From: a bacterium
Lineage (GTDB): Bacteria > Campylobacterota > Campylobacteria > Campylobacterales > Sulfurimonadaceae
NCBI GenBank assembly: GCA_018825665.1
Contig: JAHJEG010000047.1
Location: 1 to 54,739, forward strand
DNA: 54,739 nt
Direction of reading: 5' to 3'
Below the pieces are notes generated by a model. The model did no database searches. It saw only the letters and a list, made by a program, of their open reading frames with translations, and was not told where the DNA came from. The position numbers and the translations under genes are program-made. Position 1 is the stretch's first letter. The number at the start of each line of letters is the position of its first letter. Positions 19,436 to 43,200 of the stretch are shown piece by piece.

Positions 19436-20405
19436 GAATGAAAATGCCATTGTTTGTCTTTTGTGCAAGCATTACTGCACGCTCAAAAAGGATTCACACG
19501 GGATTTGCGGTGTGAATTTCAACATAGACTCCAAGCTCGTGAACAAGACCTATTCCCATCCGAGTGCCGTTCATATAGATCCAATCGAGAAAAAACCCCT
19601 CTATCATTTCCTCCCCTCATCTACTTCCCTCTCGATTGGAACCGTGGGGTGTAACTTTAGATGCCCGTTTTGTCAAAACTATTCAATTTCACAGACTTCA
19701 AACGTTGATGAGAGTATCGTCTATACTCCAAGAGACATCGTGGACCTTGCCCTCAAATACAATACCAAAAGCATCAGCTACACCTACAATGAGCCGACCA
19801 TCTGGTACCCTTATGCAAAAGATATCGGCATCCTGGCCAAAGAATACGGGATAAAAAATGTATTTGTTTCCAGCGGATACGAGTCGCATGAAGTTTTAGA
19901 GGATATGAAGTCCTGGGTGGATGCCGCAAATATCGACCTTAAGAGTTTTTCGCACGATTATTACAAAAAGGTGCTAAAAACAGACCTGGACGGAGTGTTG
20001 GAATCACTCATCGAATTTGCCAAAAGCGATATATGGCTTGAAATCACCACTTTGCTGATTCCGGATATCAACGACGGCGAAGAAGAGATACATAAGATGG
20101 CAGAGTTTATCTCTACAAAACTCGGAGTCGACATACCTTGGCATTTCAGCGCTTTTCATCCGGACTATAAAATGCTCGATACTCCAAGCACCTCCCTCCA
20201 AAGCATGGAAAGAGCCAAAAAAATTGCAAAAAGTCACGGTATAAAATATGTATATCTTGGCAATATTCAAAACGACAGCAGTACCTATTGTTCCAATTGC
20301 GGTATGAAACTTATAGATAGAAACGGATTCAGTTCCGGCATGCCAAACATGGAGGACGGAAAATGTATGGCATGTGGAAGTACGATCAAAGGAGTCTGGT
20401 CATGA
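19416..20405 (+). CDS. amrS: AmmeMemoRadiSam system radical SAM enzyme
   Basis: About 329 residues, related to pyruvate formate-lyase activating enzymes. The radical SAM cluster motif CNFRCPFC (CxxxCxxC) follows GTVGC; an extra N-terminal cysteine set (CLLCKHYC and GICGVN) and a C-terminal zinc-ribbon-like pair (CSNC and CMAC) are typical for this subgroup. The ATG at 19416 lies five bases behind GAGGAGGA, inside the end of amrA. Its stop overlaps the amrB start (ATGA). The product and substrate are unknown; the conserved neighbourhood implies action with the AMMECR1 and MEMO proteins. Confidence 0.94.
   Translation: MQYYRYKNENAIVCLLCKHYCTLKKDSHGICGVNFNIDSKLVNKTYSHPSAVHIDPIEKKPLYHFLPSSTSLSIGTVGCNFRCPFCQNYSISQTSNVDESIVYTPRDIVDLALKYNTKSISYTYNEPTIWYPYAKDIGILAKEYGIKNVFVSSGYESHEVLEDMKSWVDAANIDLKSFSHDYYKKVLKTDLDGVLESLIEFAKSDIWLEITTLLIPDINDGEEEIHKMAEFISTKLGVDIPWHFSAFHPDYKMLDTPSTSLQSMERAKKIAKSHGIKYVYLGNIQNDSSTYCSNCGMKLIDRNGFSSGMPNMEDGKCMACGSTIKGVWS
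20369..20377 (-). repeat. CCACATGCC copy 7
   Basis: In amrS, antisense, coding strand Ala-Cys-Gly; it supplies the last cysteine of the C-terminal metal-binding pair. Confidence 0.85.
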
Positions 20406-21184
20406 AAAGAGAGATGAGCGTAGCCGGTGCTTTTTATCCGGCGAGAGATACCGAACTTGAGAGATATTTTGAGCATTTCAACACAATTTATGATGAAAGC
20501 CATAAACTGCCAAATATCAGATGCAAGGCCGTGATAGTTCCACATGCCGGATATATCTATTCGGGATATACCGCCAACATCGCTTACCGCCTTTTACAAA
20601 ACACGAAGATTAAAGAATTTGTGGTCATAGGGCCCTCGCATAGAATCGGATTCAACGGAGTAAGCATGTGTCAGGCAAGCAGCTACAGCACTCCATTTGG
20701 AGACATCCCTGCAGCATCCGCACTCAGACAAGAGCTCCATGATACATTCAAACTCAACAGCCTGATTCCACATGCCGAACATTCGACAGAAGTTCAATTC
20801 CCTTTTTTGAAATACTATATGCCTGATGTCAATATCCTTGAGCTTATTTACGGCAAAGAAGATCCCGGTTTTATATCTGAGATAATAGATTTTGTCTTAG
20901 GCAAAGAAGATACGGGGGTCATCATCAGTACAGACCTGAGCCACTTCTACGATCTTCAAGACGCGAACAAACTCGACCGCATCTGTTTAAATGCGATAGA
21001 TACACTCAATCCTGCCTTACTTCATAACGGCTGTGAGGCATGTGGAGAAATCGGTATAGAGGCTATGCTCCTGAGTGCAAAAACACTCAATCTGCAGACT
21101 CAGATACTTGATTACAGAACAAGCGCAGATGCAAGCCATGATTCGCAAAAAGTGGTTGGTTATGTGAGTGCCTGTTTTTATTAA
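20402..21184 (+). CDS. amrB: AmmeMemoRadiSam system protein B (MEMO family)
   Basis: A 260-residue MEMO1-family protein, structurally related to extradiol dioxygenases. The metal-pocket histidines are in VPHAGYIYSG, GPSHRIG and STDLSHFYD, and the AEHSTEVQFPFL segment is typical. The ATG at 20402 has AAAGGAG seven bases upstream and overlaps the amrS stop. Human MEMO1 is reported to bind redox metal; the bacterial role is unknown. Three copies of CCACATGCC occur in this gene alone, one writing the conserved PHAGY motif. Confidence 0.94.
   Translation: MKREMSVAGAFYPARDTELERYFEHFNTIYDESHKLPNIRCKAVIVPHAGYIYSGYTANIAYRLLQNTKIKEFVVIGPSHRIGFNGVSMCQASSYSTPFGDIPAASALRQELHDTFKLNSLIPHAEHSTEVQFPFLKYYMPDVNILELIYGKEDPGFISEIIDFVLGKEDTGVIISTDLSHFYDLQDANKLDRICLNAIDTLNPALLHNGCEACGEIGIEAMLLSAKTLNLQTQILDYRTSADASHDSQKVVGYVSACFY
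20540..20548 (+). repeat. CCACATGCC copy 8
   Basis: In amrB, sense; writes Pro-His-Ala of the conserved PHAGY pocket. Confidence 0.85.
20768..20776 (+). repeat. CCACATGCC copy 9
   Basis: In amrB, sense, Pro-His-Ala of IPHAEHS. Confidence 0.85.
21037..21045 (-). repeat. CCACATGCC copy 10
   Basis: In amrB, antisense, Ala-Cys-Gly. Confidence 0.85.
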
Positions 21185-21187
21185 AAC

Positions 21188-21928
21188 TCAGACAATCCAT
21201 TCCTGCCAGGCAAAACTTTTAAAAATATCTTGAAATGTCTCATCCAGAGCTGCAATCACCGTGATATCCGCACCGCTGTGGGGATGCCTGAATTTTAATG
21301 AAGATGCGTGCAGAAGCATTCTGTGGCAGTCGTATTGCTGTCTTATAAACTTGTTATGTTCTCCGCGGCCGTATTTGGTATCTCCCAAAAGATGATGCGA
21401 TATATGTTTCATATGTCTTCGTATCTGATGTTTTCGCCCGCTGCGTGGCAAGACCTCAAGCAGTGAGTATCTGGTCTTCTCATAACGGCCTGTGGCATGT
21501 GGAAGTTCAACTTTTGCAAGTCTGGTATATTCCGTGAGCGCTTCTTGGGGCTCTTTGTCCTCTTTTGCATTTTTATCGGCTATCTTGTCAAGTTTCACGC
21601 TTAAGGGGTGCTCTATTATCCCAGATTCCTGTGTGTAGCCACGCACTACGGCAAGATATTTTTTTTCTATAGTGTGCTCTTGAAACTGCTCCGACATCAG
21701 TCTCGCGCTCTCTTTATCAAGCGCAAACAACAGCACGCCGGAAGTAGGTTTGTCCAGGCGGTGCACCGGGTAGACATATTTGCCTATCTGGTCGCGGATA
21801 ATCTTCATGGCAAAATATATCTCATGCCTGTCTATCATAGACTTATGCACCAGCAAGCCGCTCGGCTTATTTACAATTACGAGATATTCGTCCTGATATA
21901 TTATTTCTAATTCATAATCTTTGTACAT
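21188..21928 (-). CDS. truC: RluA-family pseudouridine synthase (TruC-like)
   Basis: A 246-residue RNA pseudouridine synthase. The catalytic aspartate lies in VHRLDKPTSG; RSGRKHQIRRH and LLGDTKYG are the later family motifs. There is no N-terminal S4 domain, and the overall form fits TruC (tRNA U65) best, although other RluA members are possible. It converges on amrB with a 3-base gap. KVELPHATG is written by a CCACATGCC copy. Confidence 0.88.
   Translation of the reverse strand: MYKDYELEIIYQDEYLVIVNKPSGLLVHKSMIDRHEIYFAMKIIRDQIGKYVYPVHRLDKPTSGVLLFALDKESARLMSEQFQEHTIEKKYLAVVRGYTQESGIIEHPLSVKLDKIADKNAKEDKEPQEALTEYTRLAKVELPHATGRYEKTRYSLLEVLPRSGRKHQIRRHMKHISHHLLGDTKYGRGEHNKFIRQQYDCHRMLLHASSLKFRHPHSGADITVIAALDETFQDIFKSFAWQEWIV
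21494..21502 (-). repeat. CCACATGCC copy 11
   Basis: In the pseudouridine synthase gene, sense, Pro-His-Ala. Confidence 0.85.
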
Positions 21929-39966: not shown

Positions 39967-40983
39967 TCACTCTTCTTTGAGAGCTTTTATCTGCGAGAGC
40001 TTTTTTAACACATCGGCAAAGACGGCATCCCTTTGGTTTTTGGCGCTCAAAAAAGATTTGTCGCCTCTGTGCGGCAGCTGCGGAATCATAAAATGCTGCT
40101 GAAGGTTTTCATCCCCCACCCCCTTCCATCTTTTAGAACTGGCAAAGAGAGTATCCGCAAAAAATGTCATCGTCGCACATCCCACAAGCGAAGCCAAATG
40201 ATAGGTTCCCGTTGAAGTGCTTACAAAAAGTTTAAAACTGCTTATGAGTTTTGCGAAGTGTACAATTCCGCTTTTTGAGATGTAAAAAAGAATATCTTCC
40301 CCTTTGAGCTTTTCCTGCATCTCCTTGCATAAGGAAACCTCATCCGGTCCGAAGGTAAGCACAAGCTGATATCTTCCCTGCTTTAGAACCTCACGGATAA
40401 GGATCCCATACTCGTCGAGATTCCAGTTTGCATCCGACGAGCCGCCAAAGCCCACATGGAATGCCACCACCTCTTTTGTGACTTTATACTCTTTGCAAAA
40501 CTCCATATACACATCTTTTGCATCCCCAAATACTACAAGCGGCTTTGTATAGCCCAGGTCTATGTCAGGAAAAAGTGTTTTTGTAAGTTCAAGGTTATAC
40601 TCAAACTCAGCCATTGCAACCTCGCTTCGTCTTTGCCTGACTCTGTGTGTGTAAAATATCTGCGCTATCTTTGTAGCCGGTGCGATTCGCTTTGAAATCC
40701 CTGCCGCAAACTGGGCAAACGCCACGCGGGTATTTGAAAAAAGTGTAATAGAGACATCTGCATTCGCCTTTTTGAGCTTCTTCGTCAGTTCCCATACGCC
40801 GCTTTTTTCATCATCCACAATCACCTCATCAATAAATCCACATGCCAGGGCCAGTTCTTTATTCAAAGGTGCCACACAGGCGATGATCCTGTTGTGCGGA
40901 TTATGCTTTTTGAGCACATATATGGCGGGAAGTGCGGTAATAAAATCACCGAGCTTGTCTGTACGGACGACTAAAATATTCAC
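39967..40983 (-). CDS. family 9 glycosyltransferase (heptosyltransferase-like)
   Basis: A 338-residue GT9 enzyme: ILVVRTDKLGDFITALP at the start, and the C-terminal STSTGTYHLASLVG region with SSKRW. It resembles heptosyltransferases I-III; which heptose it adds is not clear. Its start overlaps the end of the ligase gene by one base. It lacks the full NDSGPMH motif seen in the WaaF gene at 45.8 kb. Confidence 0.88.
   Translation of the reverse strand: MNILVVRTDKLGDFITALPAIYVLKKHNPHNRIIACVAPLNKELALACGFIDEVIVDDEKSGVWELTKKLKKANADVSITLFSNTRVAFAQFAAGISKRIAPATKIAQIFYTHRVRQRRSEVAMAEFEYNLELTKTLFPDIDLGYTKPLVVFGDAKDVYMEFCKEYKVTKEVVAFHVGFGGSSDANWNLDEYGILIREVLKQGRYQLVLTFGPDEVSLCKEMQEKLKGEDILFYISKSGIVHFAKLISSFKLFVSTSTGTYHLASLVGCATMTFFADTLFASSKRWKGVGDENLQQHFMIPQLPHRGDKSFLSAKNQRDAVFADVLKKLSQIKALKEE
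40838..40846 (+). repeat. CCACATGCC copy 18
   Basis: In the GT9 gene, antisense, Ala-Cys-Gly; first of five copies in 1.5 kb. Confidence 0.85.
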
Positions 40984-41792
40984 TAATCTCTCCTTAGCCT
41001 CATGAATGAAGCAAATTTGGGCTTGCCGTACTTTGTGAAGCCGTAATGTCTAAACGTGACAATGGTTCCCGTTTTAGGCGGATTTTTTCGTTGTTCCTCG
41101 CTAAAACCGCTTCCAAGATAAAACCGTATCCCATTTGCAAGTTCAAGCTGCAGGCTCCCCATCATCCCAAAAAACTTGCCACTTCCCTCTTTGTATCCAA
41201 CTACTTCAGCCTCGGAGTCATCCGCCTTTTTTACCTTGAGTATAGAATCGCTTCTGCCATCAAAATAGCTCTTTGATGCATCTTTTATCATCACGCCTTC
41301 GCCGCCCTTTGCTATGACATGTTCCAAAAAAGCATCCAGCTCTTTTTGGTTCATACATATTTTTTGCTCAATGATCTCCACATGCCGCAGCTTCTTTTTT
41401 TCTATAGAGTCTCTCACTTTTTGCAGTCTGTCTGTAAAGTTTCCCTCGGCTCCGGGCGCTTCAAACAGCATATATTTTATCTCTTTCCACATGCCGCCGG
41501 GGTTTGCATCCATAACAGCGGCCTGGATGTTTTCAAAGTCCCCTCTTTTGCTCCACAACTCCCCATCAAGAGCGAACTGCGGCAAGCCCCGCGTAAAATA
41601 CTCAGGCGCATTTATCTTTTTGTTTTGTCTTGTAAAAAGATTTTTTCCATCCCAATACGCCCGAATCCCATCAAGCTTTTCCGACATCACCCAGCCTGAG
41701 ATATTCTGGTCCGTATATCTGTTTGCCTTTTGCAGAGCCAGCGCATCTGCACAAGTCAAAACAAGCCAGAGGAGAACAAAAAGTCTAAGCAA
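40983..41792 (-). CDS. ligE: secreted ATP-dependent DNA ligase, LigE type
   Basis: A 269-residue minimal ATP-dependent DNA ligase with an N-terminal signal peptide (about 1-19, ending ADALA). The adenylation lysine is Lys39 in KLDGIRAYWDG; ALDGELW, KGGEGVMIK and ILKVKK are the further nucleotidyltransferase motifs; a short OB domain follows (GTIVTFRHYG). This is the LigE (Lig E) layout: minimal, exported and found in competent bacteria, where it has been proposed to repair incoming DNA in the periplasm. Two CCACATGCC copies lie inside, 109 bases apart. It is the first gene of a minus pair with the GT9 gene. Confidence 0.92.
   Translation of the reverse strand: MLRLFVLLWLVLTCADALALQKANRYTDQNISGWVMSEKLDGIRAYWDGKNLFTRQNKKINAPEYFTRGLPQFALDGELWSKRGDFENIQAAVMDANPGGMWKEIKYMLFEAPGAEGNFTDRLQKVRDSIEKKKLRHVEIIEQKICMNQKELDAFLEHVIAKGGEGVMIKDASKSYFDGRSDSILKVKKADDSEAEVVGYKEGSGKFFGMMGSLQLELANGIRFYLGSGFSEEQRKNPPKTGTIVTFRHYGFTKYGKPKFASFMRLRRD
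41378..41386 (+). repeat. CCACATGCC copy 19
   Basis: In ligE, antisense; coding strand His-Val in LRHVEI. Confidence 0.85.
41487..41495 (+). repeat. CCACATGCC copy 20
   Basis: In ligE, antisense; coding strand Gly-Met-Trp. Confidence 0.85.
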
Positions 41793-41894
41793 GACTAATG
41801 TGTACCAAAATCTGCGTAAGCACTACCGATAACTGATATTTTCATAATCATGCATTCCTGATTTTTTTGATTTATGATTTTACATTAAAAACGA

Positions 41895-41900
41895 TATAAT
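41895..41900 (+). promoter_or_regulatory. -10 box seven bases before an ATG (possible leaderless mRNA)
   Basis: TATAAT followed by TCGCCTT and then ATG at 41908; no ribosome site. Confidence 0.45.
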
Positions 41901-41907
41901 TCGCCTT

Positions 41908-43200
41908 ATGAAAAAACCGTATCAATGGGATAACTATTCCGACCAGCCGTATCAACTAAAAGACAAAGAGTATAAAAAAAAGATGAGAAAAAAAGAACTC
42001 GTTTCTTTGGTAAAAACATTTTTTATATCACTGTTTATCCTTCCCTTTTCGCTTATCATGATGCCCTTTGTGAGAAGAAAACATGTCGATTCAAATACAT
42101 TTTTTTGTATGGGCGTTGATTTTCAAAGAGAGCCAAAAGAGAGCCTGAAACTGCTTAATGAACTTGGGGTAGAGCACATTCTACTGCGATTCAAACTTTG
42201 GGAGATGGATTCGCTTCCTCTTTTGCAGGAGTTTGTTTCCACATGCCAAGATAAAAAGATCACCCTTAAGATTATGCAAGACCAAGAGCATGTGGAAGAT
42301 TTGCAACTGCTACAAAAAGACCTCAGAACACTCTTTGGCACGCTCAACGGGCATGTGGATATTTATGAGATAGGCACAACGATCAATCGCGCAAAGTGGG
42401 GATTTTTCAGTGTAGACGAGTATAACCGTTTTTTTCAAACGGCTTATGATTTGATGACCCAGGAGTTTTCACATCTGCTTGGGCAAAACGGCAAAGATTC
42501 TCGAAATCCAAAACTCATAGGAAGCGGTGTCATAGATTTTGAGTACCATTTCACGGCACATACTTTTTTTAACTTTTTTAAATACCGCTACGACGGAATC
42601 TCCGCATTGCTCTATGTAGACAGAAGAGGAGCTCCCGAAAATACACAGATGGGATTTGACCTCTCAGATAAGATAGCATGGTTGAGCACTATGGTCTGGC
42701 TGAGTCCCAAAACCCCTCAAAAGCTCTATATCACGGAGACAAACTGGCCTATAACCGGAACCGCCCCCTATGCGCCCACAAGCGAACACGAGTGTATCGA
42801 TGAGGAGCAGTATGCTGATTTCATGATTCGCTATTATCTTTTAGCCTTTGCTTCTCAGCAGGTTGATGCTGTTGCCTGGCATCAGCTCATAGCTCCCGGA
42901 TACGGGCTTATAGACAACAGAGAGGGTATAAGAAAACGAAGTGCCTTTGAAGCGTATAAAAACATGCTGCAACACCTCAAATATGCACAGTTCCTACGCA
43001 TGGATATAAAACGGGACTACTATATACTCCAGTGTCTCGTTGATGAAAAACTGCTGCAGATACATTGGTCACTCAAGCCGACCACGCTTAAAAATGAAGA
43101 TTATTTTGATGTACTCTCCCGTGATGGAAAACTTATAGAAGATGAAATTCTCAACATAGGTTCTTCCCCTTTATATATACATATAAAAGACAAGGTATAA
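41908..43200 (+). CDS. membrane-anchored glycosidase-like protein
   Basis: A 430-residue protein with a basic N-terminus, one membrane helix (about 33-54) and a large periplasmic domain that looks like a TIM-barrel glycoside hydrolase of clan GH-A. Candidate catalytic glutamates are Glu154 in YEIGTTIN and Glu277 in YITETNWP, about 120 residues apart as in that clan. The family is not certain. It lies between the DNA ligase and the PAP2 phosphatase, so it may trim an envelope glycan. Two CCACATGCC copies lie within. Confidence 0.72.
   Translation: MKKPYQWDNYSDQPYQLKDKEYKKKMRKKELVSLVKTFFISLFILPFSLIMMPFVRRKHVDSNTFFCMGVDFQREPKESLKLLNELGVEHILLRFKLWEMDSLPLLQEFVSTCQDKKITLKIMQDQEHVEDLQLLQKDLRTLFGTLNGHVDIYEIGTTINRAKWGFFSVDEYNRFFQTAYDLMTQEFSHLLGQNGKDSRNPKLIGSGVIDFEYHFTAHTFFNFFKYRYDGISALLYVDRRGAPENTQMGFDLSDKIAWLSTMVWLSPKTPQKLYITETNWPITGTAPYAPTSEHECIDEEQYADFMIRYYLLAFASQQVDAVAWHQLIAPGYGLIDNREGIRKRSAFEAYKNMLQHLKYAQFLRMDIKRDYYILQCLVDEKLLQIHWSLKPTTLKNEDYFDVLSRDGKLIEDEILNIGSSPLYIHIKDKV
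42239..42247 (+). repeat. CCACATGCC copy 21
   Basis: In the glycosidase-like gene, sense, read in a third frame as Ser-Thr-Cys. Confidence 0.85.
42350..42358 (-). repeat. CCACATGCC copy 22
   Basis: In the glycosidase-like gene, antisense; coding strand His-Val in NGHVDI. It faces copy 21, 111 bases away. Confidence 0.85.

Follow-up and report, generated by a model that had tools for sequence, protein, structure and literature searches.

An uptake-sequence-like word in Sulfurimonas and its density in ligE, the gene of a predicted exported DNA ligase

The contig JAHJEG010000047.1 of the Sulfurimonas assembly GCA_018825665.1 (54,739 nucleotides, hereafter the window) carries ligE, a gene for a minimal ATP-dependent DNA ligase, together with many copies of a short word, CCACATGCC, which are dense in and around this gene. 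CCACATGCC looks like an uptake-sequence-like word of this Sulfurimonas species and of some of its relatives, the uptake function being proposed from its distribution. The reading that we favour, and hold to be probable though far from assured, is that such a word settles in tolerant genes and that ligE is rich in it as a weakly constrained gene. A preliminary description of the window had read the abundance of the word in ligE as pointing to a role in recombination or repair, which our results do not support.

The word CCACATGCC in the Sulfurimonas genome

The genome under study comprises 2,340,223 bases in 59 contigs. The window contains 26 copies of CCACATGCC for 0.22 expected, a number that none of 100 shuffles attained. 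Over the whole genome the word occurs 754 times (397 and 357 copies on the two strands), compared with four occurrences of the reversed control word. T precedes 25 of the 26 window copies and TT 17 of them, the extended form being TTCCACATGCC. Further properties were read in a 380-kb sample of this genome, composed of the window and 20 other stretches and containing 135 copies. There, 28 of the 135 copies are intergenic while only about 7% of the bases are, orientation relative to genes displays no bias (58/49), and all eight pairs of copies less than 40 bp apart are inverted. Seven other CCACATGCC genomes were examined around ligE: of 97 copies, 9 fall between genes, where 2.7% of the bases lie, and the close pairs are two inverted and one direct.

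It is because of the extended form, the presence on both strands, the intergenic excess and the inverted close pairs that CCACATGCC looks like an uptake sequence. Two features of the class formed by DNA uptake sequences (DUS) and uptake signal sequences (USS) are found here, namely a very high, dispersed, two-strand over-representation and terminator-like inverted pairs; inverted DUS/USS pairs are described as serving as terminators (PMC2397512, PMC5217627; the articles cited here and below were available in part). As for the competence machinery, considered through ComEC and DprA alone, ComEC is encoded in 123 of 135 genus genomes, the present one (G000) included, word or no word, and does not discriminate; DprA was found in 22 of 25 word-rich genomes.

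Word density in ligE and in other genes

The gene, the cluster of CCACATGCC copies at it and a second dense cluster found in the window are as follows.

40983..41792, minus strand: ligE, exported minimal ATP-dependent DNA ligase (predicted), 269 aa, TTG start according to the open reading frame list
40838..40846, plus strand: CCACATGCC copy within the heptosyltransferase gene
41378..41386, plus strand: CCACATGCC copy within ligE, codons 136-139, RHVE
41487..41495, plus strand: CCACATGCC copy within ligE, codons 100-102, GMW
42239..42247, plus strand: CCACATGCC copy within the gene of a 430-aa protein
42350..42358, minus strand: CCACATGCC copy within the same 430-aa gene
20363..21184, plus strand: Memo-family gene with four CCACATGCC copies, the window's other dense cluster

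The five copies span exactly 40838-42358 (1521 bp) with two inside ligE, in agreement with the two copies in the gene and five within about 1.5 kb reported initially. Random placement of 754 copies would give 0.95 such five-copy clusters genome-wide, with a probability of 0.61 for at least one, and the ligE cluster by itself is therefore unremarkable. The 380-kb sample alone, however, holds three of them (ligE, window 20369-21494 and hemD on contig C17) against this 0.95 per genome, and CCACATGCC copies thus do cluster. Of the 106 genes between 600 and 1020 bp long that were called mechanically in the sample, four carry at least two copies, ligE being one of them. The cluster had been called one of the densest, rightly so, yet hemD (L169:6763-7494 of the same genome), with six copies in 0.73 kb the densest gene seen, and the Memo-family gene are denser. 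That the ligE cluster is an accident picked after the fact is most improbable. The random expectations above would accommodate it, but in seven further CCACATGCC-rich genomes the ligE locus contains 4-6 copies, G341 with its 4.4-kb contig being the exception, and ligE of other species is dense in other words. Pure chance clustering was rejected on these cross-species counts and on the three clusters of the sample.

The genus has at least four genome-wide words that nearly exclude one another: CCACATGCC, the palindrome TACATGTA, AAACGCAG and CTCACGCA, with maximum counts of 1427, 848, 2331 and 962, respectively. The further words were found by sampling 20-40 kb from 30 other genus genomes under a second-order model, since an order k-2 Markov screen, as applied to the present genome, is blind to rigid words. 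With expectations based on each genome's own word rate, ligE contains 16 CCACATGCC for 2.9 expected in nine CCACATGCC-rich genomes (14 of them in the eight besides the present one), 3 for 0.36 in seven CCACATGCC-poorer genomes, 14 TACATGTA for 2.2 in 11 TACATGTA genomes and 15 AAACGCAG for 3.8 in eight AAACGCAG-rich genomes. When the three words are pooled over the 25 genomes with more than 0.18 copies/kb, 39 copies are observed for 8.6 expected, and in 18 of the 25 ligE carries one copy or more. The count leaves out G335 and G364, whose sequence was not fetched, and the fragments in G343 and G371. In the 1.5-kb flanks of ligE, enrichment is clear only in CCACATGCC-rich genomes (27 for 10.1 expected), the figures being 10 for 8.2 with TACATGTA and 10 for 15.8 with AAACGCAG.

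Certain codon positions of ligE are used recurrently: 98, 113 and 136 by CCACATGCC, 128, 136 and 214 by TACATGTA, and 15, 82, 113, 149, 153 and 172 by AAACGCAG, codons 113 and 136 carrying different words in different species. The codons covered by CCACATGCC copies are 98-102, 113-115 and 136-139, and 10 of these 12 vary among relatives.

Control genes were sought in 25 comparable genomes each; their open reading frames were picked by position and starts may be wrong, and weaker or second hits were dropped (2/24 for dprA, 1/22 for ligA, which was cut off, 6/30 loci for His_biosynth and 7/25 for hemD, the last with 26-33% identity). Words number 10 for 7.9 expected in hisF (24 genomes, x1.3), 33 for 19.1 in ligA (21 genomes, x1.7) and 22 for 8.1 in dprA (22 genomes, x2.7). 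The excess is x4.5 in ligE, and it is highest in the haem synthesis gene hemD (44 for 5.4 in 18 genomes, x8.2), which was picked as the densest gene in this genome. hemD is word-rich in other species also, and for TACATGTA; seven CCACATGCC genomes have 28 copies in it, 22 of which come from the six other than the present one. Mean protein identity over six or seven CCACATGCC-clade genomes is 0.94 for HisF, 0.85 for LigA, 0.73 for DprA (these three over the matched part only), 0.70 for LigE and 0.68 for HemD, an order that is the exact reverse of that of word excess. Since the excess climbs as protein conservation drops, tolerance of change fits better than repair function. Permissive positions, which DUS occupy in the core genome (PMC2397512), are thus found here too, both in the five genes and in the varying word codons of ligE.

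DUS and USS are reported to be enriched in genome-maintenance genes (PMC2397512, PMC2734928), and the excess in dprA and ligA agrees mildly with this. The expectation that repair and recombination genes would be dense in the word stands to the extent that both exceed hisF, but hemD lies well above them. Its density, and the way in which excess follows low conservation, led us to reject the idea that the words in ligE mark a repair function.

We suppose that CCACATGCC probably accumulated because DNA bearing the word was taken up preferentially and then recombined, and that it would have settled wherever the protein sequence tolerates it, ligE being word-rich because it is weakly constrained. 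Several observations weigh against this reading. The tie between word and competence rests on analogy, because ComEC is present regardless of the word. The series comprises only five genes, of which ligE and hemD entered it for being dense, and genome sets vary slightly by gene. ligE copies are partly inherited among relatives, and the Poisson excess therefore overstates the independent evidence; in CCACATGCC-rich genomes the flanks are enriched too, so that the effect there is partly regional. No copy is found in ligE of G341, of four of the eight TACATGTA-rich genomes and of two of the eight AAACGCAG-rich ones, nor in six AAACGCAG-poor genomes (0 for 0.7 expected). W102 and P113, which underlie CCACATGCC copies, are invariant. 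Lastly, permissiveness leaves unexplained why 17 of 19 CCACATGCC genomes retain ligE.

Presence of ligE and of words across the genus

A correlation between ligE and the word had been proposed as a check, and it holds for CCACATGCC but not for words in general. Of the 135 genus genomes, 19 have 50 or more copies of CCACATGCC, and ligE occurs in 17 of these against 53 of the remaining 116 (Fisher P = 0.00035); the two CCACATGCC genomes without it have completeness values of 71% and 75%. With the other words, ligE is found in 12/27 (TACATGTA), 17/30 (AAACGCAG) and 0/8 (CTCACGCA). Any of the four words taken together gives 45/83 against 25/52 for genomes with none, and a link of ligE to uptake-like words generally was rejected on this comparison. 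Seven of the genomes counted as having ligE contain nothing but fragments or broken copies of it; when they are left out, the fractions become 17/19 against 46/116 for CCACATGCC and 43/83 against 20/52 for any word (P = 0.16).

Simulation of ligE evolution on a ComEC tree gave P = 0.002 for CCACATGCC (16/17 against 39/83) and P = 0.006 for the absence of ligE with CTCACGCA, the other three tests being not significant. Under slower rates, with the richest genomes only or with genomes at least 90% complete only, P for CCACATGCC ranges from 0.002 to 0.03. The tree covers 100 of the 135 genomes. Of its 27 wordless genomes, which were picked manually, 14 have ligE and 13 lack it; the other 73 bear a word and are all those in which ComEC was matched (74) except G327, where it is split. 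Of the five tests, all made on the tree of one gene and with P values uncorrected for their number, this association is the one positive. It is suggestive that ligE goes with CCACATGCC in the genus, in the absence of a general link to uptake-like words.

This association brings in an explanation in which Lig E itself would belong to the uptake route, mending nicks in periplasmic double-stranded word-bearing DNA before ComEC; CCACATGCC species would then retain ligE, and selection to recover the gene by transformation would keep it word-rich. The near-constant retention of ligE under the tree-aware tests argues for it, as do the appearance of CCACATGCC at several places of the tree (6 changes) and the enrichment of dprA and ligA. 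An uptake role for Lig E has also been put forward in PMC10799422, as a proposal not demonstrated and, in the part available, named as yet to be explored. Against it, 53 genomes with fewer than 50 copies of CCACATGCC keep ligE, CTCACGCA genomes have none, TACATGTA and AAACGCAG display no association, hemD exceeds in density the maintenance genes that were compared, and the knock-out phenotypes described for Neisseria gonorrhoeae Lig E concern biofilm and adhesion (PMC10799422). With the caveats of the tree just given, we regard this explanation as unlikely. The role of Lig E could be tested directly in cultured species.

Alternative words in Sulfurimonas

Word classes were set by eye and post hoc, at 50 copies or more for CCACATGCC and, for the others, at three times the control or more and at least 90-100 copies. 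One genome, G412, passes for two words (50 CCACATGCC, 271 TACATGTA); it was kept in both sets for per-word counts, with TACATGTA in the ligE density count and with CCACATGCC in the trees. G016 and G363, which pass weakly for AAACGCAG (141 and 101 copies) beside CTCACGCA, were classed as CTCACGCA. Word class follows descent yet switches often, as it undergoes 23 changes on the ComEC tree, compared with at least 51 in 500 shuffles.

Some genomes have intermediate CCACATGCC counts of 50-226 (G351, G413, G404, G315, G412), which are possibly cases of word gain or decay under way. The ComEC of G337 clusters with the main CCACATGCC clade, but hisF, ligA and dprA of this genome group elsewhere, and its ligE belongs to the type prevalent in that clade; horizontal replacement of a competence gene along with the word is possible.

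The four words are not equivalent. Intergenic copies number 5/140 for TACATGTA and 1/139 for AAACGCAG, no excess, unlike CCACATGCC. The two close pairs of AAACGCAG are inverted but wide, CTCACGCA has none, and TACATGTA cannot be scored as it is a palindrome. Because only CCACATGCC combines terminator-like pairs with an intergenic excess, the other three are less secure as uptake words. ACATG is shared by CCACATGCC and TACATGTA, and ACGCA by AAACGCAG and CTCACGCA; there is no single core in all four.

Genome-wide signal words of other kinds include HIP1, Chi and KOPS. That CCACATGCC is such a signal, whether a polar site of the Chi or KOPS kind, a methylase-tied element resembling HIP1, or a nucleoid or regulatory site, seems to us somewhat unlikely. 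The palindromic nature of TACATGTA, the word of many relatives, which shares a core with CCACATGCC, would fit such a function, as would the lack of intergenic excess in TACATGTA and AAACGCAG. A polar site agrees poorly with the even distribution of CCACATGCC relative to genes and between strands, a comparison to which replication direction is external, and the inverted terminator-like pairs and the switching of words between close relatives, similar to that of DUS dialects (PMC3630211), point away from this family of explanations.

The uptake-like word that we favour resembles known systems in several respects. As in the DUS dialects of Neisseriaceae, words reach hundreds to thousands of copies, mostly with one main word per species and with related species differing (PMC3630211), and inverted pairs are described as terminators there (PMC2397512). 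The Sulfurimonas words differ from these in being of unrelated sequence, in another phylum, without a common core among the four and with one palindrome, uptake being proposed here by analogy. The USS of Pasteurellaceae, of which Haemophilus influenzae AAGTGCGGT has about 1300 copies (PMC5217627), is likewise a dispersed short word with inverted pairs as terminators, and differs in sequence and phylum. No description of uptake words in Campylobacterota was found in the open-licence literature among the matches listed, and the available parts of PMC2734928 and PMC5217627 describe none. Several nearly exclusive words within one genus would constitute a second, independent system in which to examine the origin and switching of uptake words and how they shape proteins. 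We can imagine, although we judge it decidedly unlikely as a whole, that at least four alternative uptake words, one of them palindromic, replace each other among close Sulfurimonas relatives and act as transfer barriers, Lig E having retained a word-linked part in uptake in the CCACATGCC dialect.

At the level of the order, CCACATGCC is present in quantity in only 2 of the 298 genomes drawn, both of this genus, and four copies occur in the 1.05 Mb of 74 ligE loci taken from named records (L057-L130). The Arcobacteraceae/Campylobacterales loci L064, L066 and L072 have an excess of the palindrome GCAATTGC around ligE, and TACATGTAA is over-represented also in the Sulfurospirillaceae locus L098. 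Another candidate, CCCATCATA in G414, was put aside, unchecked, as a likely local repeat.

The ligase and its gene neighbourhood

The identification of the gene product as a LigE-type ligase with a KxDG core was borne out. It matches the Pfam families DNA_ligase_OB_2 (7.8e-25) and DNA_ligase_A_M (8.3e-10; adenylation domain) and scores 349.5 bits for the NCBIfam DNA ligase equivalog NF006592, whose cut-off is 200. KLDG, with Lys39, is invariant across 16 genus LigE sequences, the present one included, as are F110 E111, E165 G166, K186 and K188, which we take to be later ligase motifs. The N-terminal leader MLRLFVLLWLVLTCADALA looks hydrophobic, as judged by eye on the alignment. Family searches found no further domain beyond the KxDG nucleotidyltransferase core and the oligonucleotide/oligosaccharide-binding (OB) domain, and the solved structures best matched by the LigE profile are 8u6x, 4d05 and 6gdr, listed merely as DNA ligases. 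Judging from its sequence, the protein would be a typical Lig E, exported to the periplasm, where Lys39 would be self-adenylated with ATP before nicks in double-stranded DNA are sealed; its substrate could be DNA outside the cytoplasm, either incoming or of the biofilm. Lig E of N. gonorrhoeae is likewise a minimal ATP-dependent ligase with adenylation core, OB domain, no additional domains and an N-terminal leader, here a putative one (PMC10799422), whereas the present gene belongs to a Campylobacterota genome, lies in a lipopolysaccharide (LPS) locus and overlaps a heptosyltransferase gene.

Matches to ligE with in-frame stop codons were seen in L012 (G320), L020 (G404) and genomes G343 and G408; they may reflect decay or assembly errors.

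The adjacent genes are:

39967..40983, minus strand: heptosyltransferase (Glyco_transf_9), sharing one base with the end of ligE
41908..43200, plus strand: gene of the 430-aa protein, divergent from ligE, with no Pfam or NCBIfam match

Because of the one-base overlap on the same strand, the heptosyltransferase gene and ligE are probably cotranscribed and translationally coupled, and LigE would probably be made jointly with the heptosyltransferase encoded behind it. The location of the ligase inside an LPS cluster was confirmed by Pfam: glycan/LPS genes near ligE in the window encode two Glyco_transf_9 proteins, Wzy_C, a Kdo/WaaP kinase, a Glycos_transf_1 protein, PAP2 and a sulfatase-fold protein. 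Over 24 fetched loci the block reads heptosyltransferase - ligE - 430-aa protein - PAP2 - (sulfatase-fold) - heptosyltransferase. It is retained wholly or partly in CCACATGCC, TACATGTA and AAACGCAG species bearing this ligE type, the first heptosyltransferase gene adjoining ligE in 17 of 19 such fetched loci, and G281, which has none of the four words, retains ligE, the 430-aa gene and the second heptosyltransferase gene. As this arrangement is common to species with other words, the place of ligE is uninformative on uptake; uptake as the reason for this placement was rejected, the block being common to species with other words and in part to a wordless one. A second ligE type (G310, G305, G358, G356, G341) has none of the block neighbours, the contig of G341 being the short one.

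The 430-aa protein adjoins or lies near ligE in relatives across the genus. Its ITETNWPITG stretch gives the impression, and only that, of a glycoside-hydrolase-like fold.

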